Assembly: GCF_001541095.1 (NCBI RefSeq)
Contig: NZ_LMXH01000007.1
Span: forward strand, 10,391-74,390
DNA length: 64,000 nucleotides
Direction of reading: 5' to 3'
Origin: Paenibacillus sp. FJAT-26967
GTDB taxonomy: Bacteria > Bacillota > Bacilli > Paenibacillales > NBRC-103111
Position numbers and translations under genes: made by a program. The notes under the pieces are model-generated. The model saw nothing but the letters and a program-made list of their open reading frames with translations. It searched no databases and had not been told where the DNA came from. Each line of letters opens with the position of its first letter. Position 1 is the first letter of the stretch. Shown piece by piece: positions 6,232 through 45,989 of the stretch.

Positions 6232-7038
6232 TCATGAGCCTGTTCCTGAATAGCTTTTGATGGCTTTATTCCAAGCCAGATAAGCCAGTGAAAATAAGAG
6301 AACCCCGACTAACGGCGAGCAGTAAGCCAGCAAATCGGCATCGGTGAAGGATTTTAAAAAGAGCTGGGATGGATAAAAGGCGACAAATCCGATGGGGAGG
6401 ATAAACGTAAACAGAAATTTAAAAAAATTATTAAAAATGGTTACGGGGTATTTGACGATTTCTCTGAACCGGAAAACAAAAGCGATCACATGAAACGGAT
6501 TCGTAATCCAGAAACCCGTTGCCGCTGCCATAATCATTAGAGAAACCATAATTAACGAAGAGCCCAGCAGAGCAATCAATAATAAAACGATGCTTACCAA
6601 ATTCCAGGAGAGACCGAGTTGGACGGAAGCATAGATCAATCCGGCAGCCCCGAAGGCTAATTGGCTTAATCCTTTGATGTCAAAGACTTCGGACATGTAG
6701 TAGAACATGACATTAATGGGCTTCAAGTAATATTTGATAAACGTTCCGTCGATCAGATGGGTCCACAGATTCCAGATGTTATCGAAGAAAAGCTGCAGCG
6801 GGGATAAGGCAATCAGGGAAAACGAATAAATAAATAAAATTTCATAATAAGTAAAGCCTTCCAGGCTGGAGACGGAATTGAAAATGATCCACAAAGGCAG
6901 AATCCCCACAAGATTCGTTACCAGCATCCCGATCGAGCTTATAATAAAGTCGGCCCGGTATTGCATTTTCACTTTAAAATATTGAGAAGTGATTTTTAAG
7001 TAAATTTTAAAGTAAAACAAGAGTGTTCTCACTGCCAT
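6232..7038 (-). CDS. ABC-2 type exporter permease (second subunit)
   Basis: A 268-residue integral membrane protein with about six hydrophobic segments, beginning MAVRTLLFYFKIYLKITSQY. It belongs to the ABC-2 permease type found in pairs with one ATPase (daunorubicin- and viologen-exporter-like systems). Its start codon overlaps the stop of the upstream permease, so the two are translationally coupled. It is the last gene of the long minus-strand operon and probably forms a heterodimeric export channel with the permease at 7038-7829. The cargo is inferred to be the product of the hydrazine cluster or its precursor. The region is visibly more AT-rich than the flanking housekeeping genes. Confidence 0.8.
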   Translation of the reverse strand: MAVRTLLFYFKIYLKITSQYFKVKMQYRADFIISSIGMLVTNLVGILPLWIIFNSVSSLEGFTYYEILFIYSFSLIALSPLQLFFDNIWNLWTHLIDGTFIKYYLKPINVMFYYMSEVFDIKGLSQLAFGAAGLIYASVQLGLSWNLVSIVLLLIALLGSSLIMVSLMIMAAATGFWITNPFHVIAFVFRFREIVKYPVTIFNNFFKFLFTFILPIGFVAFYPSQLFLKSFTDADLLAYCSPLVGVLLFSLAYLAWNKAIKSYSGTGS

Positions 7039-7829
7039 TAACCCCCGTTTATTGTGATGACCTTTAATGCCCTGTGATGAAAGAAACGACTAAGGATGAA
7101 TAAAACAGAGATCCAGAAGAGTTGAACGGAGATGAATGTAAGGTAATCGGATGCCTGTAAGGTTGGTGTAATCAGAATAGTTAACGGAGTGTTGTAGATG
7201 GCTTGAAAAGGTAAAAGCTGAACAACTTCACGCAATGGTTCAGGAAAAAATGCCAAGGGAACCAGAGCGCCGGAAAAAAATAAAACGACCACTTCTTTGG
7301 TAATGCTGATCCCCCATATGGATTCGGTATAAAAGGAAAGCAAACCAATCATGTAATCGATCAGGAAAGCAATAATCAGGGCAAAGATAACGGCAAGAAT
7401 AAAAAAGAGAAAGTTCAGTCGGATTTGAATGCCTGCTTGAAATACAAGAAGAATGAGCAGAAAGGACGGAACCGTAATCGTCAGAAAGTTAGAGAAGACG
7501 CCACCCAGCGAATTACAGAACCGGTTGAACTGATAGTCAAGAGGCTTAATTATATCGGTTATAATGTTCCCGCTGATAATGTCTCTGGACATGAACCATT
7601 CCGTATAAACTTGAAACATCACGGCCATAGAGGAGGCTAACGCGAGGTAAACAAAAACCTCATTGAAGGTCATGCCGTTGATTTCAGTGTTGTTCTTATA
7701 AATAGAGGACCACAGGAAATAAATGACGGTCAAATACAGAATATTGCCCAGGAAAGCAAAGATAAAGCTTGCTCTCCTTGATAATTCCGTCATGAAACTA
7801 TTTCTGGCAATAACGAAATAGCGTTTCAT
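7038..7829 (-). CDS. ABC-2 type exporter permease (first subunit)
   Basis: A 263-residue polytopic membrane protein (MKRYFVIARNSFMTELSRRA...) with about six transmembrane stretches, typical of ABC-2 permeases without a fused ATPase. Its start overlaps the end of the ATPase gene (stop at 7826) by 4 bp and its stop overlaps the next permease, which marks a tightly coupled three-gene transporter. The expected complex is two ATPase copies with two non-identical permeases. Export or self-protection for the upstream biosynthetic pathway is an inference from operon position. Confidence 0.8.
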   Translation of the reverse strand: MKRYFVIARNSFMTELSRRASFIFAFLGNILYLTVIYFLWSSIYKNNTEINGMTFNEVFVYLALASSMAVMFQVYTEWFMSRDIISGNIITDIIKPLDYQFNRFCNSLGGVFSNFLTITVPSFLLILLVFQAGIQIRLNFLFFILAVIFALIIAFLIDYMIGLLSFYTESIWGISITKEVVVLFFSGALVPLAFFPEPLREVVQLLPFQAIYNTPLTILITPTLQASDYLTFISVQLFWISVLFILSRFFHHRALKVITINGG

Positions 7830-8848
7830 GATACACCGCCCTCATAAATATTCCGGATGATTTGTTCGATATCGACCTCTTCGATTTTGATATCTTTCAC
7901 CTGAAAGTGACTGATAACGAAATTCAGAACCTCCATCAGTTTTACCTCGTCCTGATTGATCGTCAGACTTATCCAGTAATCATCCGCTTTAACGACAGGT
8001 ATAGTGGTTTTCGCTCCGAAATTAGCCTGTACTTTCTCCGCGATCTGAAGATGAAGGTCCGGATCATTCTCCGTACATTCCAGTTTGAGCGTTCGGAACG
8101 CCCCGAAAGAGCGGCTTACCGCCTGAATGCCCCCATCATAAATAATCGTCCCTTTATCGATAATAACGATTCTTTTGCATAAAGCCTCTATATCGCTCAA
8201 GTCATGCGTCGTTAAAATAATGGTCGTTTTCTTAATCTCATTTAATTTTTTTATGACATTTCTGATTTTATTCTTAATGGAGACATCCAGACCAATCGTG
8301 GGTTCGTCCAGAAAGATAACTTTGGGATTGTGCAGGAACGAGGCCGCTATGTCGCATAACATCCGTTGTCCCAGAGACAAAAACCTTACCGGTGTCGCAT
8401 GCAGTTTATTCAAATTCAGGACTTCATTAAACGTATCCATATTCTCGTCAAAGCTCTTTTGATCCACCTTGTAGATTTCTTTCAAAATATTTAAAGACTC
8501 AATCACGGGCAAATCCCACCAAAGCTGACTCCTCTGGCCGAATACAACGCCAATTTGCTGCATATTGCGGGTCCGGTTCTTATACGGAATCTGGCCGTTC
8601 ACCATAATGCTGCCCTCAGTCGGTTCCAATACACCTGTCATTATTTTGATGGTCGTGGATTTCCCGGCGCCATTGGGCCCCATGAACCCGACAATCTCTC
8701 CTTCTTCCACCTCCAGGGAAATCCCCTTGACGGCATGAACCATCCTGTAATCCCCGGAAAATAAATCTTTGAAAGCTCCCGACAATCCTTGCCTCCGGTT
8801 CAAAACTTTAAAGCTCTTGCTCAAATCATTAACTTGAATGATTCCCAT
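7826..8848 (-). CDS. ABC exporter ATP-binding subunit
   Basis: The chosen ATG (8848, MGIIQVNDLSKSFKVL) drops 14 poorly supported upstream residues and gives 340 residues. Walker A is GPNGAGKSTT (~residue 58), the Q-loop FGQRSQLWWDLP, the signature LSLGQRM and Walker B VIFLDEPT, followed by the H-loop TTHDL. The C-terminal ~100 residues are the extension usual in drug- and polysaccharide-type ABC-2 ATPases. It energises the two permeases downstream, with which it overlaps by 4 bp. Confidence 0.88.
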   Translation of the reverse strand: MGIIQVNDLSKSFKVLNRRQGLSGAFKDLFSGDYRMVHAVKGISLEVEEGEIVGFMGPNGAGKSTTIKIMTGVLEPTEGSIMVNGQIPYKNRTRNMQQIGVVFGQRSQLWWDLPVIESLNILKEIYKVDQKSFDENMDTFNEVLNLNKLHATPVRFLSLGQRMLCDIAASFLHNPKVIFLDEPTIGLDVSIKNKIRNVIKKLNEIKKTTIILTTHDLSDIEALCKRIVIIDKGTIIYDGGIQAVSRSFGAFRTLKLECTENDPDLHLQIAEKVQANFGAKTTIPVVKADDYWISLTINQDEVKLMEVLNFVISHFQVKDIKIEEVDIEQIIRNIYEGGVS

Positions 8849-8916
8849 CTGTGCATCACCGCTTCTTATTTGATAAAACAAGGCAGGCATCCGGGGCCGT
8901 TACGGCAGCCCCAGGC

Positions 8917-9963
8917 TCAGGCCACCGCAGTTCCGATCCGTGCCAGCTGATCCAGCAGCTTCCGCTCAAGCTGAATAATTTCCTCTTGAAATTGGCTGAT
9001 TACGGTCTGATTTTTCTGCGTCTCTTCCGCACTGCCTTGTTCTCTTTTATGGATAAACATGACAAAATGGATGAGTTTCTTCCACGCTTCATGGCAATCG
9101 TTCATAAGCGTCTGAGTCTGTGCTATCCGAGCCGGATCTTCTTCGTTTGCCGCCATGAATTTCAAGATCATTTTAAAGAGCACTTTTTGCGTGTTCGCAT
9201 AAGCCATACCCATGCCCGTATCGTGATTCAGAAGATAATCGAATTTGGGCCCGATCAGTTGCTCCTCTTGCCCTGCATATTCAAGAATCATACCGGACAG
9301 ATCTGTTAATACGCCGGAAGCAGGGGCGGTGACAGGCGAAGTAAGAGGTTTCAGGACTTTAATGGTGCCGCGCATATATTCAAAGGATTCATTATAAAGC
9401 CGGTACCCGGATTCCAGCATCTCGTAGAGCATGTAGAATTGGGAACATACATCGCCGGTACGGGTGCGCAGGGCAGGATAAGGTTTGCTGTTGGTTAAGG
9501 AAACGTTGTGCTCGCCATCCTGAATAACGAATACCTTTCTTTCGCTGTCAAACCCTTTAATCAGGGTCAAATGAGGATGATCTTTCTTTAGATATTCCTC
9601 GCAGTAGAAGATCGCCTTTTTATTGACCGGTACAAAGACAGGCCATCCGTTCCTTACTTGCTCTTCAATCTTCAGGACGAGGTCCTCATCTGCGGGTAAA
9701 GCAGCGATCTCCAGACCCAGTTTTTCTTTCAGAACAAAGGCTTCGGTCAAATCTAAAGAATCGTTATTGTAAGGCTGCGGAAATTGGGGATCGGACCGGA
9801 CATTATAATGGAGATAAAAGTAGAAATACAGATAGAACAAATCGGGATTCTGTTGTCCATACGCTTGAGTCGCTATATACTTGGGCACATAAAAGCAATT
9901 CAGTCCATGTTCGTCATACAAGTTCTGATCAAATAAACAGTCAATCCCATCAATGACTTGCAT
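8917..9963 (-). CDS. BtrH/C39-like protein, candidate carrier-protein-to-amine acyltransferase
   Basis: A 348-residue soluble protein. The first ~200 residues look like the BtrH N-terminal, papain/C39-like fold: a Cys near the N-terminus (GIDC, residue 9, and GLNC, residue 22), then a His followed by hydrophobics and a turn (HPHLTLIKGFD, ~134) and an Asp in a following strand (VFVIQDGEH). In butirosin biosynthesis BtrH passes an acyl chain from carrier protein BtrI to the aminoglycoside amine. Its place between the biosynthetic genes and the exporter, in an operon with a free ACP and no thioesterase or condensation domain, makes it the best candidate for product release. The family call rests on pattern only; the C-terminal ~140 residues are helical and unassigned. 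Confidence 0.5.
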   Translation of the reverse strand: MQVIDGIDCLFDQNLYDEHGLNCFYVPKYIATQAYGQQNPDLFYLYFYFYLHYNVRSDPQFPQPYNNDSLDLTEAFVLKEKLGLEIAALPADEDLVLKIEEQVRNGWPVFVPVNKKAIFYCEEYLKKDHPHLTLIKGFDSERKVFVIQDGEHNVSLTNSKPYPALRTRTGDVCSQFYMLYEMLESGYRLYNESFEYMRGTIKVLKPLTSPVTAPASGVLTDLSGMILEYAGQEEQLIGPKFDYLLNHDTGMGMAYANTQKVLFKMILKFMAANEEDPARIAQTQTLMNDCHEAWKKLIHFVMFIHKREQGSAEETQKNQTVISQFQEEIIQLERKLLDQLARIGTAVA

Positions 9964-10033
9964 CGCTTAACCCCCCGGCAATTTAGACTCGGTTCCTCAA
10001 AGTACACTCATACGGCTTGTACACTAAATGGGC

Positions 10034-11134
10034 CTACGCCCGTGACGGCCATTTAACAAACCGCCCGTCCTTCACCTGGTGTGTGTTCCAGGCAAAATTC
10101 ATAGGCTCCCCTTTGTAGTTCACGTGCAGCTTCCCTACAAGAGAATCCTTCGTAAAGCTCTCCATCCGGATCTTGTCGATAAACGCATGCAGCCCTCTTT
10201 GAGCCAGGATGTGAATGGACTCCAGACCTTGACGGGCGGCCAAGTAACTTGTTACCGAATAGGCCCCGGGTTCCAGGCCCGACAAGTCCACATACCTTTG
10301 GCGAAACGCTTCATAATCGGAATGGTCCGTATTAACTCCCGTAGAGACCACATAGACTTCACCCTGTAAACCTTGGGCCGCAGCCAGAAACTCCTCCAGA
10401 TAAGCATCGTCTCCCAGAACCACCGAACCTCGGTAACCGGCTTCCTTTAACTGTTCAAGAAGTTCTGCCCCTGCCAGATAAGTTCCGGCAAAAACAACGG
10501 TGTCCAAACCGGCCAGATTAGTGGCGGTCAAGGCATGGCCCTTCCCGTCCGATTCCGTCGCCACCTCGATCCCGCTGCGCACAAGAGTGCCTCTTAATAA
10601 TCCGGCCAGAGTACGCCCGTACAGAATATCCTGCCAGACGAGAGCAACCTTGCCGGCGCCTCCCCGTACGACCACATCCGTCATCGCTTCAGCCATGTCA
10701 TCGTCTCTTCCGTAATACCGGACAACATTGCGCAGCCCCATCGCCGTAAGAAGCGGATTGGAAGTACCCGGCGCAAGGAAGGGGATGCCCGCTTGCTCGT
10801 ACACTTGAGCGGCACGGAGAGCCTCCGTGCTGCTGCAGTGACCGATCACGATATCCGCTCCTGATCTGACGAGCCGCCTGGGAGCGGTACTGTCGTCGTT
10901 CTCATCGAGCGTATCCTCTTCCCACAGCAGTTCAAGCTCGTAGGGAGGATCGCTTTGCAGCCATTCTTGGGCGCCTGCCAAACACCCGAAGCACAGCTCC
11001 CTGGCATGCGCACTGGTCAGATTGCTGCTGATTCCCAGTCTGACCTTGGGGCGCCGGTTATTGGTCCGGGGAAGTCTGAGAAGCTCCCCCGGATTAAAGG
11101 ATGTGGAACCGGCTATCGTAGCTAGGCTGTTCAT
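10034..11134 (-). CDS. Periplasmic-binding-protein type I fold protein without signal peptide
   Basis: A 366-residue protein similar to LivK/AmiC/urea-binding proteins: an N-terminal strand with RLGISSNLTSAHA, then GADIVIGHCSSTEALRAA and a GTSNPLLTAMG segment typical of the ligand pocket. There is no signal peptide or lipobox, and no amino-acid ABC permease gene nearby, so it is probably cytoplasmic. AmiC of Pseudomonas is a precedent for a cytosolic member that senses a small amide. Inside a biosynthetic operon it might sense, carry or sequester an intermediate; this is inference. The neighbouring gene spacings are 33 and 70 bp. Confidence 0.7.
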   Translation of the reverse strand: MNSLATIAGSTSFNPGELLRLPRTNNRRPKVRLGISSNLTSAHARELCFGCLAGAQEWLQSDPPYELELLWEEDTLDENDDSTAPRRLVRSGADIVIGHCSSTEALRAAQVYEQAGIPFLAPGTSNPLLTAMGLRNVVRYYGRDDDMAEAMTDVVVRGGAGKVALVWQDILYGRTLAGLLRGTLVRSGIEVATESDGKGHALTATNLAGLDTVVFAGTYLAGAELLEQLKEAGYRGSVVLGDDAYLEEFLAAAQGLQGEVYVVSTGVNTDHSDYEAFRQRYVDLSGLEPGAYSVTSYLAARQGLESIHILAQRGLHAFIDKIRMESFTKDSLVGKLHVNYKGEPMNFAWNTHQVKDGRFVKWPSRA

Positions 11135-11167
11135 CGGAACACTCCCGTTCTCCTCATATTCGCCTCG

Positions 11168-11632
11168 TTAGACGGTCGGCATGAAATAATGGTAAAATTC
11201 CAGATCCTTCTCAAATCCGACTCTTTCGTACAGCGTCTGAGCGCTGTGATTATGTACAGAGGTCGACAGAATCAGACCTTTGCCTCCGGTACTCCGTGAA
11301 AGTTCCGCTGCCTTCCCAATCAGCATTTCTCCCACCCGCTTGCCACGCATTTCCGGGATGACGTACAGGTCATTCAGAATCCATAATTTTTTTAGAGAGA
11401 CGCTGGAAAAGCTCGGATACAGCTGGGTAAACCCCACTGCGGTATCATGCTCGTAAGCAAGGAAAAGAACCGATTCCCCATTCCGGAGCCGATCTTCAAG
11501 GAATCTCCTGGCTTGACCCGGGTCACTGTCCTGCTTGTAGAACTGTCTATAGGAGTCAAACAGCGGAACAAGATCGTCGATCTGCTTGTCAGATGCGGCA
11601 ATAACACGGACATTGGCTGTTAATTCAGACAT
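11168..11632 (-). CDS. GNAT-family N-acetyltransferase
   Basis: A 154-residue single-domain GNAT. The acetyl-CoA-binding region is LNDLYVIPEMRGKRVGEML (~88-106, R-G-x-R-V-G), with the C-terminal HNHSAQTLYERVGFEK typical of the fold. It follows the FAD oxidase by 12 bp. In this pathway it could acylate the hydrazine or a diaminobutyrate amine, or acetylate the product for self-protection. It is not obviously EctA-like despite the EctB-like enzyme nearby. The substrate is unknown. Confidence 0.8.
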   Translation of the reverse strand: MSELTANVRVIAASDKQIDDLVPLFDSYRQFYKQDSDPGQARRFLEDRLRNGESVLFLAYEHDTAVGFTQLYPSFSSVSLKKLWILNDLYVIPEMRGKRVGEMLIGKAAELSRSTGGKGLILSTSVHNHSAQTLYERVGFEKDLEFYHYFMPTV

Positions 11633-11644
11633 TCTTAGCCCTCC

Positions 11645-12850
11645 TTATCTCGAAATAGTGGCATTATCCTGGCTATAGCGGTGGGAATCAACCCAAGGCT
11701 GCACCCTGTCAAAGCGTGACGCGTAGAAAGGGGATAAATCTACGGTGGAAGCTTTTCCGTGAAGAATAAGCTCGCTCAGCCCTCTTCCGATGGCAGGAGC
11801 CGTCTTAAAAGAAGTCCCGCTGTCTCCCGCAACCGTGTACAGCCCCGAATACGGCTCAAGCGGGCCGATGACCGGACGCGAGTCCGGACTTGTCATGAAC
11901 AAGCCGGCCCAATTCCCGCGTGCGTTAGCGTTATTCATAACCGGATACCTGCTGGCCAGCAGCTCCCGGTATTCCCTGATCAAATGATCGGGAACACTCT
12001 CGGACGCCCTGATCCTTCCATGAATGGGCCTGACACCGGATTCGGAACCCATCAGGGTACAGGACTCGCTCGTCGGACGGAACCAGGTATTATGGACATA
12101 ATCCATACATGTCGGGTGCCTCTGAGTCCGCTCCGGCGTCCAGCGAAAAGTGACAATGCGTGTCAGAGTAGGTGTCAGTCCCAGGTCGAGACCCAAAGGT
12201 GCAAACAAACGATTCGCCCCGATTCCCGCTGCTACGACAACGACAGGCGAATGGATCATTCCCTGATTGGTCAGGACCCCTTGAACCTGGTTGTTGCTGT
12301 GCACGATTCTGACGGCTCCCGTCCCGATCCGGTATTCAGCACCCAAATCCCGGGAAGCCTGCATGAAAGAATAATTAGCCGCATTAGGATCGGCATATCC
12401 CGCCGATTCTTCAAAGCCCACATAATCAATAGACTCTTCCATATACATCGAAGAGTCTATTTGATTGACTTCATCCCGGGCAATTAGCCGGATCGGGATA
12501 CCCATAGCTCGCTGCCAGCTCATATTATGCTTCAAATCGGCAAGTTTGCCGGGCGGCACGATAACGACCAGGCCGCATGGGTCGAACCCGCAGCTTCCCC
12601 CGACAATCCCTTCCCAATTCTGAAAATATTCCAGGCTCGTTAAAGCCAGCCGGGCCTCTGCTTCATTGGTATAGTTGCAGCGGACCAGCCCCCCGCTTTT
12701 TCCCGTTGCACCTGTGGAAAGCTGGGATTTTTCCAGCACCACGATTTTCCCCGCCTTTTCTCTCGCAAGATGAAAAGCCAGGCTGGTGCCGTTAATGCCG
12801 CCTCCGATAATGACTACATCCGCACAGTCGGATGATGCGTGCTTAGTCAT
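11645..12850 (-). CDS. DadA/sarcosine-oxidase-type FAD oxidoreductase, Spb39-like role proposed
   Basis: A 401-residue DAO-family flavoenzyme with dinucleotide motif VVIIGGGINGTSLAFHL (~13-29) and flavin-contacting motif STGATGKSGG (~46-55). The C-terminus PVIGPLEPYSGLYTVAGDSG is typical of the family. In known hydrazine pathways a DAO-type enzyme (Spb39) oxidatively cleaves the lysine part from the N-N adduct made by the N-hydroxylase and the cupin/MetRS enzyme, leaving hydrazinoacetic acid. The co-occurrence of all these parts here supports the same role. On sequence alone it could also be an ordinary D-amino-acid or sarcosine oxidase. Confidence 0.75.
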   Translation of the reverse strand: MTKHASSDCADVVIIGGGINGTSLAFHLAREKAGKIVVLEKSQLSTGATGKSGGLVRCNYTNEAEARLALTSLEYFQNWEGIVGGSCGFDPCGLVVIVPPGKLADLKHNMSWQRAMGIPIRLIARDEVNQIDSSMYMEESIDYVGFEESAGYADPNAANYSFMQASRDLGAEYRIGTGAVRIVHSNNQVQGVLTNQGMIHSPVVVVAAGIGANRLFAPLGLDLGLTPTLTRIVTFRWTPERTQRHPTCMDYVHNTWFRPTSESCTLMGSESGVRPIHGRIRASESVPDHLIREYRELLASRYPVMNNANARGNWAGLFMTSPDSRPVIGPLEPYSGLYTVAGDSGTSFKTAPAIGRGLSELILHGKASTVDLSPFYASRFDRVQPWVDSHRYSQDNATISR

Positions 12851-12862
12851 AATAACGTCTCC

Positions 12863-14137
12863 TTAAACACTCAAAAGTGTATCTTCCAGGACTTGCTCCA
12901 TAGAGCGTCTTAAAATACCAAGTCCGGCCTTCAGGTTCTCATCTGAGATCGTCAATGGAGGAAGCAGCTTAACGACTTGATCGGACCGGCCGCAAGTTTC
13001 AATGATCAGACCGTTCGTAAATGCCTGCCTGGAAATCGTTTCGGCCAGAAGTCCATGCTTCACATCCACACCAAGCATCAAGCCTCTTCCTTTTACGACT
13101 GCTTCCCCTTCCGGAAAAAGAGTGCACAAATCCTGCAGCGTCTGCCGAATATAAGCAGACTTCACAGCAAGCGATTCCTGGAAGCGCCTGTCTCTCCAAT
13201 AATTGCGTATGGCTGCAGAGGCCCCTACAAAGCCCAGGTTATTCCCTCTGAAAGTTCCGTTGTGCTCCCCGGGCTGCCAGACATCCAGCTCCGGTTTGAG
13301 CAGGACAAGAGCCATCGGAAGCCCATAACCGCTTAAGGACTTGGCAAGACACACGATATCCGGTGTGATTCCCATTTCTTCAAAACTGAAGAACGTCCCC
13401 GTTCGGCCGCATCCCGCCTGAATGTCATCCACAATTAACGGCACTTCCAGTCTGCGGGCGAGTGAAGCAAGACCTTGCAGCCATTCGGATGTTGCCGTGT
13501 TCAGGCCTCCTTCTCCCTGGACCAGCTCCACCAGAAAGCCGGCCGGCGGCTCTACTCCGCTTCCCCGGTTGGTCAGGGTCTTCTCCATGTATTCCAGCGT
13601 CGTATCGGGGCTTCCCAGAGAGCCGCAATAAGGCATGAAAGTGACACCCGGAAGACTGATCCCGGCCGCCGACCGTTTGACTGGGTCCGTAGTAGCCGAC
13701 AGCGCTCCGAGACTCATGCCGTGAAACGCATTCGTAAACGCGATGATGTTGGTCCTTCCGGTCACTTTGCGGGCAAGTTTCATGGCAGCTTCCACCGCAT
13801 TGGTGCCGGCCGGTCCCGGGAATTGCAGTTTGTAGTCCAGCCCCCGGGGCTTCAGAATATGGGTTACGAAGTCCTCGATAAAACTCCGTTTAGCAGTCGT
13901 ATACATGTCCAGGGAATGAACGATCCCCTCCTCCTGCAGATATGCGGTAATTTCTTGCCGGATCGGCCCGTTATTATGCCCGTAATTTAACGAACTCGCG
14001 CCTGATAAAAAATCCAGATAAGGGTTGCCGGCTTCATCATAGATCAGGTCTCCCGAAGCCTTTCTGAAAACCGCCGGAAAACTCCGGCAATAGCTGCGCA
14101 CATTAGATTCGTACTCTGCAAATGTAGAGTCATTCAT
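12863..14137 (-). CDS. EctB-like diaminobutyrate aminotransferase (class III, PLP)
   Basis: The ATG at 14137 lies after AAAGGAGTGATAGGAGA and starts the family sequence (MNDSTFAEYESNVRSYCRSF), giving 424 residues; the frame continues upstream by 140 codons inside the previous gene without homology. The EctB-type N-terminus EYESNVRSY, the PLP phosphate-binding GPAGTNAVEAAMK, the IVDDIQAGCGRTG Asp and the Schiff-base Lys in CLAKSLSGYG are visible. EctB makes L-2,4-diaminobutyrate from aspartate semialdehyde. Neither EctA nor EctC is present, so ectoine is not the product; it probably supplies diaminobutyrate, or a similar diamino acid, to the natural product. Confidence 0.85.
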   Translation of the reverse strand: MNDSTFAEYESNVRSYCRSFPAVFRKASGDLIYDEAGNPYLDFLSGASSLNYGHNNGPIRQEITAYLQEEGIVHSLDMYTTAKRSFIEDFVTHILKPRGLDYKLQFPGPAGTNAVEAAMKLARKVTGRTNIIAFTNAFHGMSLGALSATTDPVKRSAAGISLPGVTFMPYCGSLGSPDTTLEYMEKTLTNRGSGVEPPAGFLVELVQGEGGLNTATSEWLQGLASLARRLEVPLIVDDIQAGCGRTGTFFSFEEMGITPDIVCLAKSLSGYGLPMALVLLKPELDVWQPGEHNGTFRGNNLGFVGASAAIRNYWRDRRFQESLAVKSAYIRQTLQDLCTLFPEGEAVVKGRGLMLGVDVKHGLLAETISRQAFTNGLIIETCGRSDQVVKLLPPLTISDENLKAGLGILRRSMEQVLEDTLLSV

Positions 14138-14180
14138 TCTCCTATCACTCCTTTTACCCGCTGAAATATTCGGGGCTGTT

Positions 14181-14744
14181 CTACTTATCCTGGCTAACTT
14201 TGGGTCTAATCTGAAACGGATTGCCGCTTTCATCAAATAACTGCTTGAAATCAAATGAGGCCAGCGTAGGGCCATTGTCATGCAGGAGCTCCAGTTTCCT
14301 GCTCGCTTCCTCCCAGGTCGGAATCTCACCTTCCTCTGCATACCACATGGCATAGGTCGGCCATTCCGGCTTAACGAACCATTCATGGCGCTGCTTGAGT
14401 GCTGTAAGGTGAAGCCCCTTGTAGACGAACTGATAAACGGAGTCAATGTCCTCCCAGAGCGATAAAGTCGAAGCCCGGGTATCGGTGGACATCGTAAACC
14501 CACCCGTATAGAACCGGGGGACACTGAAAGCCCCCCATTCTCCCCAGTCGCGCTCAAAGTTGGTGAGGTGCGTCAAATCGTCGGTTTCTTTTGCTCTGGC
14601 AATAAAACCGGGGCTGTCTTCCGCCACCTCGAATACGGGCGGCGTCAGATCCTCAAACCCTTGGACTTCTTGATGACCGTACGGTTGTTTCATGATGGCA
14701 AAAGTGGTAAAAGCAACTCGGGCCAATACATTCACCTCATTCAT
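14181..14744 (-). CDS. DUF3291-family protein
   Basis: A 187-residue protein showing the DUF3291 pattern: DSPGFIAR (~45), TLSLWEDIDSVYQFVYKGLH (~94-113), RHEWFVKP, YAMWYAEEGEIPTWEEA and LELLHDNGPTLASFDF. The family is thought to adopt a dimeric alpha/beta-barrel (ABM-like) fold and has no settled activity. It starts 8 bp after the N-hydroxylase gene, inside the operon. Proteins of this fold class include heme enzymes and monooxygenases, so a tailoring step on the N-N unit is possible, but no catalytic residue can be named from the sequence. Confidence 0.75.
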   Translation of the reverse strand: MNEVNVLARVAFTTFAIMKQPYGHQEVQGFEDLTPPVFEVAEDSPGFIARAKETDDLTHLTNFERDWGEWGAFSVPRFYTGGFTMSTDTRASTLSLWEDIDSVYQFVYKGLHLTALKQRHEWFVKPEWPTYAMWYAEEGEIPTWEEASRKLELLHDNGPTLASFDFKQLFDESGNPFQIRPKVSQDK

Positions 14745-14752
14745 TAATAGAC

Positions 14753-16069
14753 TTACATCTGATACAAACGTTCCTTAACTTCTTCTGATTTCGTCAGGTT
14801 ATGAACCGCGCTCTTGGCAATCTCCATGGAACGGAGCGAAACCAGACTGAAGGAGCCTGCATCGCCAAGCCCGTGGGTCGACTCGCACAATCCGTTCAAA
14901 TACAGATGGGGAAGCGCGTCCTCTCCCACTAACTTCACGGCGTAATCCCTCTCAACTTGTATGACTCCGAATTCGTCTACGGGCAAAGCATTCTTGACCC
15001 GTTCAAGCAGTGGCGGGAACTTCTCCCCCTTATGCCCGACTCCGAAATCCAGGAACCCTGTCGCCAGAATGACAACATCCGCCTGAACTTGACGGAAAGC
15101 TTTCGTATGGATTTCCTGCGTTAACAAATTCCAGCCCTTGTCTGCCTTTGTAATCTCTTCAGTACGGGTATTATTTATAAAACGAAATCGGTTCTTCCCG
15201 TCCAGCTTCTCTTCGTACAGGCGGAGATACAATTGGTTAATGACATCCCCATCCGCAGATGAGTAGTTCGTGTTATTAAGCTGGACCGCTATCTGTTGTT
15301 TCGAGTCCCGGGATAAACTGTAGTAATAGTCGATAAATTCCGGGAAATACACGTGATCGCTGAACGGGCTCGTATCTTTGAGGCGGAAGCCGAACGACCG
15401 GTGAATCGAGCAGATTTGTGCCGTAGAGGTCCGGTTCATGAGATCAAGCAGTATTTCTACCGCACTTTGGCTCGCGCCGATGACGGCAACCGTGGTATCC
15501 TCCTGCAGGTTGAATGATTCGATTTTCTGGATATACTCCGTCAAATGAAAAATCGAGGAACCGATATGCGGTTTGAATTCCGCCGGAATGTTAGGTGTTC
15601 TGCCCGGACCTACGATCAGGCTGCGGCACAAGTACTCTTCCCCTGCTGAGGTTTGAATCTGCCACAGCTTCTGCCCTTCCTTCCCCGCAACCATATCCAC
15701 ATGTGTAACCTGTGTCGAATATTTAACGGATTCGGAAAATTGTTCTGTAACCCACGATATATACAGGGCGTATTCTTTACGCAGCGGATAGTGAATACCC
15801 AGATTCAAGTATTCAAAGAAACGGCCGACTTCCTTCAAATAGTTAATAAAGGTATAGTGGCTTCGCGGATTACGCGGAGTAACTAAATCCCGGAGAGGAT
15901 TATTCTGGATATCGGAACCGTCCAGCAGCATCCCTTCCTGCCATTTTCTATTAGCCGATTTCTCAAGAAACAGAAAGTCCAGATCTACGTCCATTTCTTC
16001 CAATGCAATGGCAAGTGCGATATTGGATGGGCCGAATCCTATTCCGATCAGGTCATAAATGTGCGACAT
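14753..16069 (-). CDS. Lysine/ornithine N-monooxygenase (Spb38-like role proposed)
   Basis: A 438-residue flavin N-hydroxylase of the IucD/SidA type: FAD motif GIGFGPSNIALAIAL (~9-23), NADPH motif VAVIGASQSAVEILL (~190-204) and the C-terminal ATGF motif (ILATGFLDFG). The family converts the side-chain amine of lysine or ornithine to hydroxylamine. No acylase or NIS synthetase accompanies it in this operon; instead it sits beside the MetRS-like and cupin genes, as in hydrazine pathways where N6-hydroxylysine is the electrophilic nitrogen donor. A second, independent N-hydroxylase for the siderophore lies at 37994-39415. AGGTATTT with a GGGAGG lead precedes the ATG. Confidence 0.87.
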   Translation of the reverse strand: MSHIYDLIGIGFGPSNIALAIALEEMDVDLDFLFLEKSANRKWQEGMLLDGSDIQNNPLRDLVTPRNPRSHYTFINYLKEVGRFFEYLNLGIHYPLRKEYALYISWVTEQFSESVKYSTQVTHVDMVAGKEGQKLWQIQTSAGEEYLCRSLIVGPGRTPNIPAEFKPHIGSSIFHLTEYIQKIESFNLQEDTTVAVIGASQSAVEILLDLMNRTSTAQICSIHRSFGFRLKDTSPFSDHVYFPEFIDYYYSLSRDSKQQIAVQLNNTNYSSADGDVINQLYLRLYEEKLDGKNRFRFINNTRTEEITKADKGWNLLTQEIHTKAFRQVQADVVILATGFLDFGVGHKGEKFPPLLERVKNALPVDEFGVIQVERDYAVKLVGEDALPHLYLNGLCESTHGLGDAGSFSLVSLRSMEIAKSAVHNLTKSEEVKERLYQM

Positions 16070-16081
16070 AAATACCTCCCA

Positions 16082-17677
16082 TTATGAAGAACTGGACACC
16101 GTGCTTACTGCCAATGCTTGAAGTGTAATTAAACCGGGCGGCAGAGGTCGTACGTTACCGATCACCGGAAGTTCTTTCCAGGACAAAGGTCCGGAAATTC
16201 CTAACTCTTCTGCGAGCCGGGATGCGAATGTGGGCATCAAAGGAGCCGCAAACAGGGCAAGGGCGGCCATTGCCGGGCCGATCCCTGCAGGTGTACTATC
16301 CGCCTCAGTCTTCACCAGCTGATCTTCCACCAGATCCATGTAGTGGACGAAGGTCTGGGCCGCTGTCCGCAGACTGAATGTATCGGGACTGTACACGAGC
16401 TCAAATCTATGCTGAAATGTCTGAATCCAGGAATTCCATTCCGGAGAGACTTGTCCGGTTATCACACCTTGTCCGACCCGTTTGTTATACAACGACCGGA
16501 TTTTTTCAAACTTATCGACCAAATTTGTCTGAATCCAAGCCGTCATCGTGTCCAGTGAACAATTGGTTTGCTGTGTTTCCGGATTGGTATAAGCCAGGTA
16601 GAACCGGACGGCGTCCGCATTGTACTTAGCGAGAAGTTCTTTTCCCCAGATCAAGTGTCCTCTGCTTGTGGAAAACTTATCGTTATCCAGAAGGTAAAAT
16701 TCATTGGTGATAAAATGACTGGCTACCGGAACGGAGAGACCCGCATCCTGTGCAGCCATTGCCAGAGCCACATGTGCGATCGTATAGAAGTAGGAATTGT
16801 CGAAGCCGAGAAACTGGACATAAGAGAGGGTGTCTGCGCTTTCTTCCGTAGCAGTACGACCCGCTTCCTTCAGCCAATACAAATGCCCCGGATACATTTC
16901 GGCCCAGACGTTGTAAACCGATGATTCCAAGCCATCAAAAGGAATACGGATTCCCCAGTCCGAGACGTACGTAACCGGAAAATCCTGCAAAGGAGATTGG
17001 AGGAGTTCAGTAAGCAGTAATTTGAGGGTAGGCCTGATATGTTGTTCACTTTCTTCAAAAAACGTCTTGATCCGGGCCCTGTAAGATTCCACGGGCAGGA
17101 ACAAGGCACGTACGGTTCTAATCTCCAGCCCGTCCTTTCCCGCAGAGGAATTTACGGGCCCCGCATCGATCAGCGTGAACGGGTCGTTAGGATGGCCGCA
17201 GCTTTCGCAAATATTGCCGTTAGTCGAGTCAAAACAAGTCGGACATCTGCCTTTAATATAGGATTCGAACAGATACCGCTCGTCCGCTGTGCTGTAATAG
17301 ACCTGCACTTGTTTCTCAATGAGACTGCCTGCCGCATACAGGGTTTCAAAAAATTCCGATACGAACCGGGTATACTTCTCGTCCGGCCTGCCTACAGTAT
17401 CAAAATGAATAGCTGCCATTTGCAAAGTTCTGCGAATATCATCGTAATTTTTTGCAACGAGTTCTTTCGGATCCTCCTGCAGCCTTTCGGCTGTTGTCAC
17501 AACATAGGACTGGTTCTCATCGATACTCAGTGCACTTGTGACTTGGCTGCCTCTCAACCGTTGGAACCGGGAGAATACATCTGCGCCGAAATACGGACCG
17601 GATAAGTGCCCGACATGCAGGTCCCCATTAGGAGTAGGGGGCGGCGCGATTACATGAAATGCACGATTAGCTGTCAT
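16082..17677 (-). CDS. MetRS-like class I synthetase, catalytic half of a split hydrazine synthetase
   Basis: A 531-residue protein with methionyl-tRNA-synthetase architecture: HIGH-type motif DLHVGHLSG (~19-27), a four-Cys zinc knuckle (CPTC...CESC, ~142-156) and a degenerate KMSKS loop reading KFSTS (~334). Housekeeping MetRS in Firmicutes is longer and carries a C-terminal tRNA-binding domain, absent here. In Spb40 a MetRS-like domain fused to a cupin activates an amino acid, which reacts with N6-hydroxylysine and rearranges to an N-N bond. The cupin lies 47 bp upstream as its own gene. The second ATG (17677) has the better spacing from AGGAGG. The acceptor amino acid (Gly or Glu in known cases) is not predictable by eye. 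Confidence 0.82.
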   Translation of the reverse strand: MTANRAFHVIAPPPTPNGDLHVGHLSGPYFGADVFSRFQRLRGSQVTSALSIDENQSYVVTTAERLQEDPKELVAKNYDDIRRTLQMAAIHFDTVGRPDEKYTRFVSEFFETLYAAGSLIEKQVQVYYSTADERYLFESYIKGRCPTCFDSTNGNICESCGHPNDPFTLIDAGPVNSSAGKDGLEIRTVRALFLPVESYRARIKTFFEESEQHIRPTLKLLLTELLQSPLQDFPVTYVSDWGIRIPFDGLESSVYNVWAEMYPGHLYWLKEAGRTATEESADTLSYVQFLGFDNSYFYTIAHVALAMAAQDAGLSVPVASHFITNEFYLLDNDKFSTSRGHLIWGKELLAKYNADAVRFYLAYTNPETQQTNCSLDTMTAWIQTNLVDKFEKIRSLYNKRVGQGVITGQVSPEWNSWIQTFQHRFELVYSPDTFSLRTAAQTFVHYMDLVEDQLVKTEADSTPAGIGPAMAALALFAAPLMPTFASRLAEELGISGPLSWKELPVIGNVRPLPPGLITLQALAVSTVSSSS

Positions 17678-17727
17678 CATCTTCCTCCTTCACTTCTGAC
17701 AAGAAACGTTCTCTCCGGGATTCTTGT

Positions 17728-18123
17728 TCAAATTCTGGACGCTCTGGACTCTACCAACTCCTCTGCCATTCTTAGCATCCGTTCATTTGCTTCAGGGCTC
17801 CCCCAGTAAATGGTAATGAATTCAAGTCTTTCTTCTTCACTGCTGTTACGGATCGTATGCTGAAGATTCGGTGGGATATAGATGATATCGCCACTGGATA
17901 CCTCGGCCGTTTCATCCTCGATCGTCATCAGTCCCCTGCCCTTCAGGATGATGAACGTCTCATGTTCGTCATGAGCATGGGGCGCAGTGTTTTCTCCGGC
18001 TCTTACAGAAGCAATCGCACTTCCCCATAACGGATCAATAAGCGACTCCCATGGGTAAATCCTTCTTAAGTCACACCCATATTCGTAGGAAGTCTCTGCC
18101 TTACTTGCATACTGGATATTCAT
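17728..18123 (-). CDS. Small cupin, N-N bond-forming partner of the MetRS-like protein
   Basis: A 131-residue single cupin. Motif 1 has PHAHDEHETFIILKG (His, His, Glu metal ligands, ~43-57) and motif 2 GDIIYIPPNLQHTIRN with the fourth ligand His (~77-92). In Spb40/Tri28-type hydrazine synthetases such a domain is fused to MetRS and converts the aminoacyl hydroxylamine ester to a hydrazine. Here it is free-standing, immediately upstream of the MetRS-like gene. ATG 18123 has GGCGGTGG at 5 nt; a GTG 9 bp upstream is the alternative start. The intact ligands argue for an active metal centre. Confidence 0.78.
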   Translation of the reverse strand: MNIQYASKAETSYEYGCDLRRIYPWESLIDPLWGSAIASVRAGENTAPHAHDEHETFIILKGRGLMTIEDETAEVSSGDIIYIPPNLQHTIRNSSEEERLEFITIYWGSPEANERMLRMAEELVESRASRI

Positions 18124-18201
18124 AATAACCACCGCCTATTCTGAGTTAATAACGCGTCTGACCGGTTTCAAACTCACTTCCATCTTATGCTTATACACGG
18201 T

Positions 18202-19815
18202 TTAACCGTCCCAATCCTCTGTTTGAAGAAGGATGCTGGAACTGCTTTCAGCCATTTTGCTTTGAATGAGACGGACTATTTTCTTGACATCCGTCTTAGC
18301 CGTCGTCATGGCAGGGAAATTACGGCATAACAGAACGGCCCTGGGAATCATGTAATTCGGCAGCTTCAGCGAAATTTGCCGGATCACGTCCGCCCCGAAC
18401 GACGGCTCCATAGATTCTTTGCAGATGATAGCGGCAACCAGCACCTTGCCCTGCTTATCTTCAATGGCGGCTACAACTCCGTCTGCGACATGATCCACGC
18501 TGATCAGCGCGTTCCTGACTTCGTTCAGATTAATGCGGTAGCCGAACACTTTGACTTCGTCATCTCTTCTCCCCAGATAGTGACAGATTCCCTGAGGATC
18601 AATCCTGGCAACATCACCGGATTTGTAATACCGGATTCCGTCTATCGTTACCGTTCTCGATGCCGTGAGTTCCGGCCTATTCCAGTACCCCCTCATTACA
18701 TGGGTGCCGCCAATAAGCAGTTCGCCCTCTTCATCAGGACCGAGCGTACTTCCTTCCTCGTCCACGATTCGCAAAGAGACGCCCCGGAGCGGTATGCCGA
18801 TCGGATAGAACTCGGTACGGTCAGGTTCAATCTCCGTAATCGGATAAATGACGCATACGCATGTCGTCTCCGTCGGTCCATACGCATTGTAGAGCCGGAT
18901 ACCCGGCACTTCACGAAGCCATGTCTGGATAGCGTTCACGTTAAGCACTTCTCCACCCGTCAGCAGAACTTTCAACTGGGATAAATCCCTTTCCTGGAAT
19001 TCACCGGCCGCTCCCGCCATCAAAGTAATGGTGGATGATATCGCGATCAGATGTGTAATTTTCTCACGCTCCAGAATGTCAAAGAATCGGGTCGGGTACA
19101 TCAAGCCTGAATACAGGAAGACACGAGAACCATAGTACAGAGGAGCGAATACATCTTCAATGGACACATCAAAATTAAATGCAGACGTATTGAGGCATAC
19201 GGAACGCTCATCAAACTGCACGATATCCTGAAAGGTCTGAATGAAACTGAGGACACTCTTGTGTTCAACTTGAACACCCTTAGGCTCGCCGGTTGAACCA
19301 GAGGTATACATACAATAAGCTAATGTGGAATCTTCTACGGTTTCTAGCGGAAGCTCTAATTCATGGATCGGGATTTCTCCCCAGACAGGGCAGTCTCCCG
19401 GAATAACCTGCTCCAGATGAATGGCGGGAATGGATTGGAATATAGACGGATTCAGTCTTTCCCTAAAAGAGGAAGGCATAATGAGATACGCGGGTTTTAT
19501 ATCCGAAATCAAATACTCGATTCGTTGTACGGGATTAGTCGGCTCAATCGGAACGTAAGTAATTCCGGCCTTCAAACATGCAGCTATCGCAATAACGACC
19601 GACACTTCCTTGGGTGCAAGGATCGCCACATGCTGGTTTGCGCACACGCCCTCGCTGATCAGAAACCGGGCCAGATGACGGCTCGCTTGATCCAGCTCTT
19701 TGAAAGTAAGGGAATGCTTGCCATCGCTAACGGCTTCCCGGTCAGGCCATCTCTTGGCGGGTTCACCTAAAAAATCGCTTAAAGATCTTACGGATCCATT
19801 CACGGTTAACGGCAT
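18202..19815 (-). CDS. Free-standing NRPS-type adenylation enzyme
   Basis: A 537-residue AMP-forming ligase with NRPS adenylation core motifs: A3 YTSGSTGEPKG (~168), A4 FNFDVSIEDVF with the Asp that usually contacts an alpha-amine, A5 NAYGPTETT, A7 YKSGDVARI, A8 GRRDDEVKVFGYRI and the A10 Lys (TTAKTDVKKI). It has no condensation or carrier domain, so it must load the free carrier protein encoded 60 bp upstream. Plausible substrates are the hydrazino acid or diaminobutyrate; the retained A4 Asp favours an alpha-amino (or alpha-hydrazino) acid. The selectivity code was not computed. Confidence 0.88.
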   Translation of the reverse strand: MPLTVNGSVRSLSDFLGEPAKRWPDREAVSDGKHSLTFKELDQASRHLARFLISEGVCANQHVAILAPKEVSVVIAIAACLKAGITYVPIEPTNPVQRIEYLISDIKPAYLIMPSSFRERLNPSIFQSIPAIHLEQVIPGDCPVWGEIPIHELELPLETVEDSTLAYCMYTSGSTGEPKGVQVEHKSVLSFIQTFQDIVQFDERSVCLNTSAFNFDVSIEDVFAPLYYGSRVFLYSGLMYPTRFFDILEREKITHLIAISSTITLMAGAAGEFQERDLSQLKVLLTGGEVLNVNAIQTWLREVPGIRLYNAYGPTETTCVCVIYPITEIEPDRTEFYPIGIPLRGVSLRIVDEEGSTLGPDEEGELLIGGTHVMRGYWNRPELTASRTVTIDGIRYYKSGDVARIDPQGICHYLGRRDDEVKVFGYRINLNEVRNALISVDHVADGVVAAIEDKQGKVLVAAIICKESMEPSFGADVIRQISLKLPNYMIPRAVLLCRNFPAMTTAKTDVKKIVRLIQSKMAESSSSILLQTEDWDG

Positions 19816-19875
19816 CGTTATTCTCTCACTCTCCTAGTAATAGAAACACTTGAGGAAGGGGAGACCAAAAGACAG

Positions 19876-20178
19876 CTAATCACTTCCCCCGACGGCGTGT
19901 ATTCCTGCTTTTTCTTTTTGGTAAGATATAAAATTCAAAATCTCGGAAATGCTTTTGAAATTGTCCAGTTTTAAATCCGCCGCATCAACCCGGAGGCTGA
20001 ATTCTTTCTCAATCTCTACGACCAGATTAATGAAATCTACTGAATTCAAACCGTTGTAAAGCAGCTCGGCATCCGTTGCCAGTTCTTCAACTGGAACAAA
20101 CAATTTGAAATTCTGCCGTAAAACCTCTCTTATCTTTGCTTCCCATTCTCCAAAATCGGTCAAAAAATTCCCTCCCAT
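19876..20178 (-). CDS. Free-standing acyl/peptidyl carrier protein
   Basis: A 100-residue carrier protein, first gene of the operon. The phosphopantetheine site is the Ser in YNGLNSVDFINLVVEIEKEF (~43-62), followed by the helix III region NFKSISEILNFI. LNSVDF, rather than the common LGGHS of NRPS domains, resembles stand-alone ACPs of aminoacyl-carrier pathways. A phosphopantetheinyl transferase is not encoded in the window and must act in trans. Its proposed partners are the adenylation enzyme next door and the BtrH-like protein at 8917-9963. Confidence 0.9.
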   Translation of the reverse strand: MGGNFLTDFGEWEAKIREVLRQNFKLFVPVEELATDAELLYNGLNSVDFINLVVEIEKEFSLRVDAADLKLDNFKSISEILNFISYQKEKAGIHAVGGSD

Positions 20179-20628
20179 CGTTCGTCATCTACTCTAAATC
20201 ATTCAAAAACTAGATGAAACAGGAAAATATGCAAGGAAAATTATTACAATTCGATCATAACTCTACCAGTAATATCAAGTCAACTCCAAATAAAATATTA
20301 AAATACTAAAAAGAAAGTGCCCGAAATGAAAATATTTTAAAGAATTTATCTCTATTTTGTTTGTTTAAATACAGTTTTTGTTTTGTTAAAATATTTTAAA
20401 TAATAATAAAATTAAATGAAATTTTATATAATAAAAACCAATTTTGCCCATAACCGAAATACCCGCGGTAGATCTTAATGCCTATGATTTCCTGTTACAA
20501 CACCTACTTAAGCCATTTGTATTTAAGGTTTAATTCCTAACTGATTATGGCAGCTTAGCCGAGATGACTAGTCCTGTATCCCATGTATGGGACTTGGAAC
20601 CTAGGAACAACTCCTATGCGGAGGGCAT

Positions 20629-20657
20629 AAAAAAATCCGTGGTAATCGCCACAGATT
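20629..20657 (-). terminator. Minus-strand terminator or attenuator upstream of the hydrazine operon
   Basis: Read on the minus strand: AATCTGTGG, loop CGATTA, CCACGGATT, then a run of T. No minus-strand gene lies between it and the divergent nitroreductase, so it would end a leader or small RNA. Confidence 0.55.
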
Positions 20658-32793: not shown

Positions 32794-33113
32794 ACGGTAC
32801 CGCCAGACGCGAGGGGGCTTAGCTGACCGATAAAATCGAGAAGAGACCCGATCGTCAGGAAAGCCTTCGGATCGATCTCATCTTCGGGAACCTGCAGGCC
32901 CAACTCGACCTCAATGTGGACCAGCAGTTGAAGAATCATAACCGAGTCAATCCGCAAATCTTCGCGGAGCCGGGTATCATCCGTAAGGTAAACTCCCCTG
33001 GGCACCTGCAGCTTTTCTGTAAAAAGAGCGTTCAGCTTCTCTCGCCGCACTTCCCGCAAAGATTCCATATCCCGCGGCGCCGCAGGTTCTGCTTGATCTT
33101 GCTTGCCGTTCAT
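32790..33113 (-). CDS. asbD: AsbD-like aryl carrier protein
   Basis: A 107-residue stand-alone carrier protein. The phosphopantetheine Ser lies in LRIDSVMILQLLVHIE (~54-69), and EDEIDPKAFLTIGSLLDFI matches helix III. It holds 3,4-dihydroxybenzoate loaded by AsbC. It overlaps asbC and asbE by 4 bp at each end, giving translational coupling. It differs clearly from the carrier protein of the hydrazine operon (LNSVDF). Confidence 0.9.
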   Translation of the reverse strand: MNGKQDQAEPAAPRDMESLREVRREKLNALFTEKLQVPRGVYLTDDTRLREDLRIDSVMILQLLVHIEVELGLQVPEDEIDPKAFLTIGSLLDFIGQLSPLASGGTV

Positions 33114-34420: not shown

Positions 34421-34441
34421 ATAACTTTCCCTCCTTGGTTA

Positions 34442-36364: not shown

Positions 36365-36629
36365 CCTCATCCCTCCCTTTTATCCCCATTTTGTCGGGTT
36401 TCTCCTTGCAGCGGGCTTCCTGCTCCCATCAGCAGCCGCTTTAACCTTGTTGCCCTGCTTCGAACATCGAACATAATGAAGGCTGTATCCTAAGGGAACC
36501 TCGAGCCGCAAGTGTCAACTTTAACTGTCCTTGCACTATCTACGCAGGCAGGCTGCCTGTAAGACAGCTACCAGCTTCCCTGTGGCATCTTCCGGCAACC
36601 TCCGTACAGTTATCGCGGATATCCCGTCC
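36365..36629. other. 265-bp gap inside the siderophore operon
   Basis: No gene. On the minus strand there is a TTGACA at about 36520 but no well-spaced -10 box and no Fur box, so whether the synthetase-asbCDEF part has its own promoter is undecided. Confidence 0.5.
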
Positions 36630-39415: not shown

Positions 39416-39450
39416 TTCATATCTCCTTACCTTCCGTCTTTCTCTCATAT

Positions 39451-39469
39451 GAGAATGATTTCATTGGCT
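39451..39469 (-). promoter_or_regulatory. Weak Fur-box-like site upstream of the N-hydroxylase
   Basis: GAGAATGATTTCATTGGCT resembles half to two-thirds of the Fur consensus GATAATGATTATCATTATC. It lies just upstream of the chosen start and could mark an internal promoter. Confidence 0.3.
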
Positions 39470-39556
39470 GTCCAGTCCGCTGCGGACAGGGTCCAGGCCT
39501 CTTTGTGTAGAGAACAAACGAGTCCGGATGAAGCACTGGATGACACAACCCCGCTG

Positions 39557-45922: not shown

Positions 45923-45989
45923 AGCTTTAATTCTCCCCTTCTCAGGTGAAGTCTGTTAATTGAGAATTCTTATCAATTACTTGTTGCCA

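Follow-up and report, generated by a model that had tools for sequence, protein, structure and literature searches.

A putative diaminobutyrate-fed, hydrazine-forming operon in Paenibacillus sp. FJAT-26967

What is made by a compact run of 14 genes in which a flavin N-hydroxylase, a cupin and a paralogue of methionyl-tRNA synthetase (MetRS) stand together with a transaminase, a free carrier protein and an exporter? The question is raised by positions 6232-20178 of a 64,000-nt stretch of the genome of Paenibacillus sp. FJAT-26967 (contig NZ_LMXH01000007.1, positions 10,391 to 74,390, forward strand; hereafter the window, whose own numbering is used below). The initial annotation, made from the letters alone, took this run for a hydrazine (N-N bond) operon of the Spb38/40/39 type, in which lysine is hydroxylated and hydrazinoacetic acid is released. 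Its general part is supported by the cupin, MetRS-like and N-hydroxylase genes, and the operon very probably forms a hydrazine. As for the amine that is hydroxylated, L-2,4-diaminobutyrate (DABA) is the probable partner, judging by the gene content and protein phylogenies given below.

The probable N-N bond-forming gene set and its operon

To collect relatives of the MetRS-like protein, 84,980 species genomes were scanned, and of at least 420 relatives the 80 best were retained; with the sister species, three further relatives and three plasmid loci they make up 87 loci, 23 of them shorter than 21 kb, so that neighbour genes can escape detection there. The window protein and the 87 hydrazine-synthetase-type sequences formed one clade of 88 rows (Shimodaira-Hasegawa-like approximate likelihood ratio test, SH-aLRT, 99), split from eight housekeeping or MetRS2-like rows, i.e., the housekeeping MetRS of the same genome and seven controls taken to be MetRS2-like. 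Both this 88-row tree and the 82-row N-hydroxylase tree discussed below include the window sequence; all trees come from quick searches supported by SH-aLRT values alone, with long branches flagged. The nearest relative beyond the sister species comes from Agrobacterium vitis (SH-aLRT 97). A grouping with housekeeping or resistance-type MetRS had been named beforehand as the outcome that would speak against a hydrazine; such an identity is ruled out by the tree position and by the separate housekeeping MetRS that the genome keeps (596 vs 207 bits). A search of 98 related genomes at 1e-30 gave 28 matches: two belong to the window's genome and its sister, three show 34-38% identity, and the other 23 score 113-142 bits, seven of these serving as the tree controls. 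The two closest PDB chains, titled just 'Methionine-tRNA ligase', show the same motif style as the window protein, and its pocket residues were tabulated without labelled reference enzymes.

The cupin carries the motif H52-x-H54-xxx-E58 (HxHxxxE) plus H92, four candidate metal-binding positions including the catalytic glutamate, which correspond to the metal-binding or acting residues H50/H52/E56/H90 of PyrN and D63/H65/E69/H103 of RHS1 (PMC8664883). The likeness to cupins of this kind, on which the hydrazine reading also depended, is thereby borne out. The string [HD]xHxxxE is present in 83 of the 85 cupin open reading frames (ORFs) of the loci, those of L078 and L089 being without it. The N-hydroxylase gene (PF13434) begins 12 bp past the MetRS-like gene. 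Counted with profiles partly seeded with the counted loci, at E 1e-5 and anywhere in the locus, matches to the core genes were found for the cupin in 85/87, for the N-hydroxylase in 83/87 and for the DAO-family oxidase in 77/87 loci; 75 of the last reach at least 45 bits, and 68 of these are no more than 6 kb away from the MetRS-like gene. Since a cupin and MetRS pair of this kind makes N-N bonds, as later biochemistry established (PMC8664883), the identification of the three genes as a hydrazine-synthetase set, and of the operon as N-N bond-forming, is well supported by the sequences.

All 14 genes are intact and form one run on the minus strand with intergenic gaps of -4 to 70 bp, as first described. 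The families originally named were likewise all recovered with Pfam and NCBIfam profiles, which added the Peripla_BP_6 and BtrH_N-like genes. In order of transcription, the features are as follows.

20254..20283, minus strand: sigma-70-like promoter match upstream of the carrier protein gene, a consensus match only (10/12 positions)
19876..20178, minus strand: free acyl/peptidyl carrier protein (ACP); PF00550, 34.9 bits; GLNSVDF motif read directly
18202..19815, minus strand: free-standing adenylation enzyme of nonribosomal peptide synthetase (NRPS) type, nine-letter code DVEILGACV; TIGR01733, 352.7 bits vs cut-off 317.4
17728..18132, minus strand: cupin half of the putative hydrazine synthetase, candidate ligands H52, H54, E58 and H92; PF07883; PDB matches plu4264 (1.4e-17) and 5uqp (RHS1, 1.4e-5)
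16082..17680, minus strand: MetRS-like half of the putative hydrazine synthetase; PF09334, 226 bits; tree; motifs TPNGD / GFDN / KFSTSRGH
14753..16069, minus strand: flavin N-hydroxylase, predicted diaminobutyrate N4-hydroxylase; PF13434, 318 bits; tree
14181..14744, minus strand: DUF3291 protein; PF11695, 128.6 bits
12863..14137, minus strand: EctB-grade diaminobutyrate--2-oxoglutarate transaminase; TIGR02407, 606 bits vs cut-off 552
11645..12850, minus strand: DAO-family FAD oxidase, predicted to cleave a C-N bond of the hydrazine adduct; PF01266, 177.7 bits; tree
11168..11632, minus strand: GNAT acyltransferase; PF00583, 57.4 bits; 44% identical to the GNAT of hydrazine-synthetase locus L015
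10034..11134, minus strand: Leu/Ile/Val-binding-type (Peripla_BP_6, LivK-like) protein, no signal peptide visible by eye; PF13458, 74.4 bits
8917..9963, minus strand: BtrH_N-like (papain/C39-like) protein, possible ACP-dependent acyltransferase; PF14399, 18.4 bits, under the cut-off of 29.7
7826..8890, minus strand: ABC transporter ATPase; PF00005
7038..7829, minus strand: ABC-2 permease (ABC2_membrane_6); PF06182, 74.7 bits
6232..7038, minus strand: ABC-2 permease (ABC2_membrane_6); PF06182, 146 bits

The ORF-list start of the EctB-like gene (TTG 14557) is too early, lying within the DUF3291 gene, and the likely start is ATG 14137, 10 bases past AAGGAG. Sigma-70-like matches show no excess in the operon region (22 vs 19.0 +/- 4.0 in shuffles). 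A terminator-like hairpin was seen on the minus strand at 20634-20657, within the 663-bp gap upstream of the operon; such matches are no commoner than in shuffles. Two sub-threshold Rfam matches to eukaryotic families were put down to chance.

The entire cluster is present in a second, sister species (genome G001, loci L013/L014), where every gene aligned over its full length at a nucleotide identity of 97.0-99.3%, with ratios of nonsynonymous to synonymous substitution of 0.00-0.23. The remaining three searched genomes of the genus (G002-G004) are without it: among the 98 relatives, the MetRS-like protein at 97% occurs only in G001, and the 19-kb stretches around a flanking gene in G002-G004 show no adenylation-enzyme, ACP, MetRS-like or EctB match. 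The GC content is 0.40-0.45 in the BtrH-like, ATPase and two permease genes and 0.40 in the ACP gene; in the other nine operon genes it is 0.47-0.56.

The hydroxylated amine

The transaminase passes the equivalog cut-off of EctB (606 vs 552 bits), as do those of the A. vitis locus L019 and the Paraburkholderia locus L021, so that an EctB equivalog clustered with hydrazine-synthetase genes amounts to a dedicated DABA supply in the operon. The ectoine synthase EctC was found in none of the five genus members searched, being over cut-off in 26 of the 99 genomes of the order, with all 14 control genomes without a match; the EctB-like enzyme is therefore unlikely to serve ectoine synthesis, and this role was rejected.

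In the N-hydroxylase tree, the window protein fell into an 18-row clade (SH-aLRT 97) with those of five strong-EctB loci (the sister species, A. vitis, Paraburkholderia and two Sphingomonas) and 12 actinomycete loci. EctB matches of at least 500 bits occur in 5/17 loci inside this clade vs 0/66 outside it (Fisher p 2e-4), the five representing four lineages, one of which is the window's genus; the 500-bit threshold was chosen after the scores had been seen, sequences from the window, L019 and L021 had gone into building the EctB profile, and two of the 83 N-hydroxylase loci, omitted from the tree as fragments, are counted among the 66. Independently of profile seeding, tblastn with the window EctB alone gave identities of 51-57%. 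At 313-325 bits, the EctB-profile matches of L071 and L093 stay below the 332 bits that the siderophore transaminase of the window reaches on this profile, and they were therefore left out of the support, as were those of L061, L075 and L079 (79-113 bits). All 12 actinomycete loci of the clade (L023-L028, L030, L035, L036, L038, L040 and L046) carry a PanD-type decarboxylase gene between the MetRS-like and N-hydroxylase genes, as do 0/75 other loci. The clade seems linked to a short diamine, and in this tree, which holds no labelled lysine enzyme, the window N-hydroxylase stands apart from those of the triacsin/azaserine (Tri/Azs)-type loci. Taken together, the EctB gene in the operon, the ectoine synthase not found and the grouping of the N-hydroxylase with strong-EctB loci point to DABA as its likely substrate.

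A second cluster, of rhizobactin/schizokinen type, was observed at 33110-47427 of the window. It comprises a DABA transaminase (over cut-off), a DABA-decarboxylase-like protein (under cut-off), two IucA/IucC synthetases, a GNAT, an N-hydroxylase, an AMP ligase, a transporter-like protein (by eye) and a ferric-siderophore-type binding protein.

Proposed pathway and competing routes

The EctB-like enzyme would form DABA from aspartate semialdehyde and glutamate, and the N-hydroxylase would convert it to N4-hydroxy-DABA. The MetRS-like enzyme may then activate a second amino acid and attach it to the hydroxylamine oxygen, and the zinc cupin would rearrange the ester to give the N-N bond. The DAO oxidase is expected to cleave one C-N bond; by analogy with actinopyridazinone, the terminal hydrazine set free would most likely be L-2-amino-4-hydrazinylbutanoate (L-AHBA). 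The adenylation enzyme would load a basic alpha-amino acid, either L-AHBA or DABA, onto the ACP, from which the BtrH-like protein may transfer it, while the GNAT would cap or detoxify and the ABC-2 system would export the product. The sequences themselves show that the genes are present, which families they belong to, that they are intact and co-conserved, and which residues the N-N-forming pair carries; every chemical step, the identity of the second amino acid, the site of cleavage and the product are predictions. We favour, with moderate confidence, this path as a whole, ending in an exported small hydrazine-bearing metabolite for which DABA serves as the hydroxylamine partner.

The code of the window adenylation enzyme (DVEILGACV) resembles that of its A. 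vitis counterpart (DVEIMGVIV); the code in a Sphaerisporangium hydrazine-synthetase locus is DAEIIGTVV. As to the BtrH-like protein, C23 and H131 are invariant across seven aligned sequences including that of the window, two of them just 18-21% identical, and are probably the catalytic papain-like Cys and His. The weak BtrH_N match, the conserved Cys and His and the ACP in the operon liken the protein to BtrH, the ACP:aminoglycoside acyltransferase of butirosin synthesis; it differs in scoring below the Pfam cut-off and in having a 52% paralogue in the genome (G000:C15 203617-204669) that adjoins an amino-acid ABC uptake system, for which reason the paralogue was rejected as a sign of a second cluster. 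Among 398 genomes sampled across the phylum, that of the window was the one with a relative (two copies); in the family, 5 of 104 genomes had one. The best one outside the genus (L116) lies directly before an ABC ATPase, recognized by its Walker A motif, and two permeases, one of them Pfam-checked as ABC2_membrane_6; the BtrH-like protein and the exporter thus look like a module. Elsewhere in the order, locus L015 holds a hydrazine-synthetase cluster with a DAO, a GNAT and a two-module NRPS of adenylation (A), peptidyl carrier protein (PCP) and condensation (C) domains (A-PCP-C-A-PCP; codes DSWHWGHIA and DVWIFSLID).

The precedent for both DABA and L-AHBA is actinopyridazinone, where a review names Apy9 as the hydrazine synthetase, Apy10 as the oxidase and Apy11 as the DABA N-hydroxylase (PMC11705231). 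As described there, hydroxylated DABA is joined to an amino acid and the adduct undergoes FAD-dependent oxidative C-N cleavage (PMC11705231), and this published route fits the window better than the lysine route does. The window differs in its split cupin and MetRS genes, the clustered EctB, the free adenylation enzyme, the ACP, and the BtrH-like, Peripla_BP_6 and DUF3291 proteins.

In the DAO tree, a supported split (98) places the window oxidase together with those of L082, L086, L087, L092, L094 and L095, although it branches outside their group.

Several points weigh against the proposed pathway. Besides the late choice of the threshold and the seeding of the profile, in the N-hydroxylase clade 12/17 loci lack an EctB match and carry the PanD-type gene, so that DABA is not shown clade-wide, and the window holds a siderophore-type cluster with a DABA transaminase of its own. 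The A. vitis locus shares EctB, cupin, MetRS, N-hydroxylase and DUF3291, yet has no DAO-profile match within about 10 kb. The nine code positions of the adenylation enzyme are those which we take to apply from GrsA, and presumably they denote a basic side chain; the BtrH_N match (18.4 bits) stays below the PF14399 cut-off of 29.7. Finally, the comparison with actinopyridazinone draws on the pathway as the review describes it.

The lysine route to hydrazinoacetate (Spb38/40/39, Tri, Azs, Dob) is unlikely here. In it, lysine would be hydroxylated and joined to glycine, the DAO would free hydrazinoacetate, the GNAT would acylate it and a ligase would load the ACP, with EctB just supplying another building block. 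The window shares the N-hydroxylase, cupin/MetRS and DAO with Spb38/40/39 (s56-p1) and with Tri, Azs and Dob, and with the latter three also the GNAT, AMP ligase and carrier protein (PMC10445470, PMC13061610), which in the triacsin, azaserine and dob pathways are described as acting after hydrazinoacetate (PMC10445470, PMC13061610); the position of the window DAO on the side of the L082, L086, L087, L092, L094 and L095 enzymes agrees with it as well. However, the window N-hydroxylase and MetRS-like protein fall outside the clade of L082, L083, L086, L087, L092, L094 and L095. In L086 and L092, a GNAT of the Acetyltransf_3 family and an AAT peptidase stand beside a carrier protein or AMP ligase, which is part of the triacsin/azaserine-type set, whereas the window GNAT is best matched by Acetyltransf_1, and none of the 14 operon genes was matched in Pfam by the AAT/C45 peptidase or acyl-CoA dehydrogenase families; a close Tri31/Tri29/Tri30-type module was sought and not found. 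As the route also leaves the operon's own DABA transaminase unexplained, the specific hydrazinoacetate assignment of the initial annotation is not upheld.

DABA might alternatively act as a reusable catalytic carrier of nitrogen, which we consider quite improbable. EctB would load glutamate nitrogen, the cupin/MetRS pair and the N-hydroxylase would pass it to an amino acid, and the DAO would cut on the DABA side, giving an alpha-hydrazino acid and aspartate semialdehyde to be reloaded by EctB. The freed aspartate semialdehyde is exactly the substrate of EctB, the EctB and DAO genes adjoin in the window (12 bp gap) and in Paraburkholderia L021, and the window DAO groups on the Tri-type side. 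But the L021 DAO is just distantly related (no tblastn match with the window DAO and a very long branch in the tree), A. vitis has EctB while a DAO was not found there, the Apy cut as described falls on the other side (PMC11705231), and the basic adenylation code suits L-AHBA or DABA more than a simple hydrazino acid.

Very improbable is a product that is no hydrazine at all but a hydroxamate, an N-hydroxy-peptide or a siderophore-like compound, the MetRS paralogue being a peptide ligase as predicted in 2010: the GNAT, N-hydroxylase and adenylation enzyme with ACP could build a hydroxamate, and Iyer et al. proposed a modified Met-Lys dipeptide (PMC2922099), but cupin and MetRS pairs are reported to make N-N bonds (PMC8664883), the window pair keeps the residues concerned, and a separate siderophore-type cluster is already in the window.

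Related clusters and accessory proteins

Among the 87 loci, the full gene combination recurs in the sister species only. ACP and BtrH-like matches were found in 1/87 loci each, again the sister species, and DUF3291 in two, the sister species and A. vitis; GNAT matches occur in six (weak, 30-34 bits, in L019, L022 and L092) and Peripla_BP_6 matches in seven, three of them (L029, L105 and L106) used to seed the profile and two (L078 and L089) weak at 45 bits. The A. vitis CG118 locus L019 resembles the window in its cupin (56%), MetRS (43%), N-hydroxylase (49%), EctB (57%), DUF3291 (61%) and similarly coded adenylation enzyme; it differs in showing no DAO, ACP, Peripla_BP_6 or BtrH-like profile match and only a weak GNAT (34 bits), and has PhzF, alpha/beta-hydrolase, rhodanese and FAD_binding_3 proteins of its own.

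The earlier statements on novelty have to be narrowed. That such systems occur mainly in actinomycetes needs trimming, as hydrazine synthetases of Virgibacillus and Bacillus are already in print (PMC11705231, Table 2). That the combination matches no cluster holds for the complete set, the sister species aside, although Iyer et al. reported in 2010 a strict link of MetRS paralogue, cupin and N-hydroxylase in actinobacteria, proteobacteria and firmicutes, and some neighbourhoods with GNAT, ACP, acyl ligases, BtrH-family and periplasmic-binding-type proteins and diaminobutyrate transaminase (PMC2922099). Most gene types of the operon have thus been known beside such MetRS paralogues since 2010, and the operon varies a known theme rather than being a new kind; in the open PMC literature, no Paenibacillus hydrazine-synthetase cluster was found. 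If the proposed pathway is true, it would place outside the actinomycetes a complete and compact N-N operon fed by DABA, in which a free adenylation enzyme, an ACP and a BtrH-like protein replace an NRPS line and which offers split enzymes for hydrazine making. EctB beside the N-hydroxylase, or PanD as in the 12/12 loci of the sister clade, may predict which diamine gets hydroxylated.

The DUF3291 and LivK-like proteins are unexplained helpers, each in more than one such cluster. The DUF3291 proteins of the window and A. vitis are 58% identical when aligned, above the MetRS pair (43%), which suggests a linked function; the window protein had no PDB match. A NIPSNAP-family gene lies divergently before the N-hydroxylase gene in L104 (6565-6906) and L106 (7575-7916), on Klebsiella and Pantoea plasmids. 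Both NIPSNAP and DUF3291 proteins fold as dimeric alpha-beta barrels.

The LivK-like protein is directly matched by proteins of Vibrio, Deinococcus, Pantoea and Serratia clusters (57, 52, 51 and 44 bits, 26-32% identity). Hydrazine-synthetase clusters from distant phyla contain such proteins repeatedly, most of them with no signal peptide to be seen, at the following positions.

Window 10034-11134
L105 12942-13793
L106 15021-15902
L029 13797-14684
L090 11451-12536

Matches to the hydrazine-synthetase-type MetRS (E 1e-40) are carried by 27 plasmid records, of which, by PLSDB typing, 10/27 are conjugative and 4 mobilizable.

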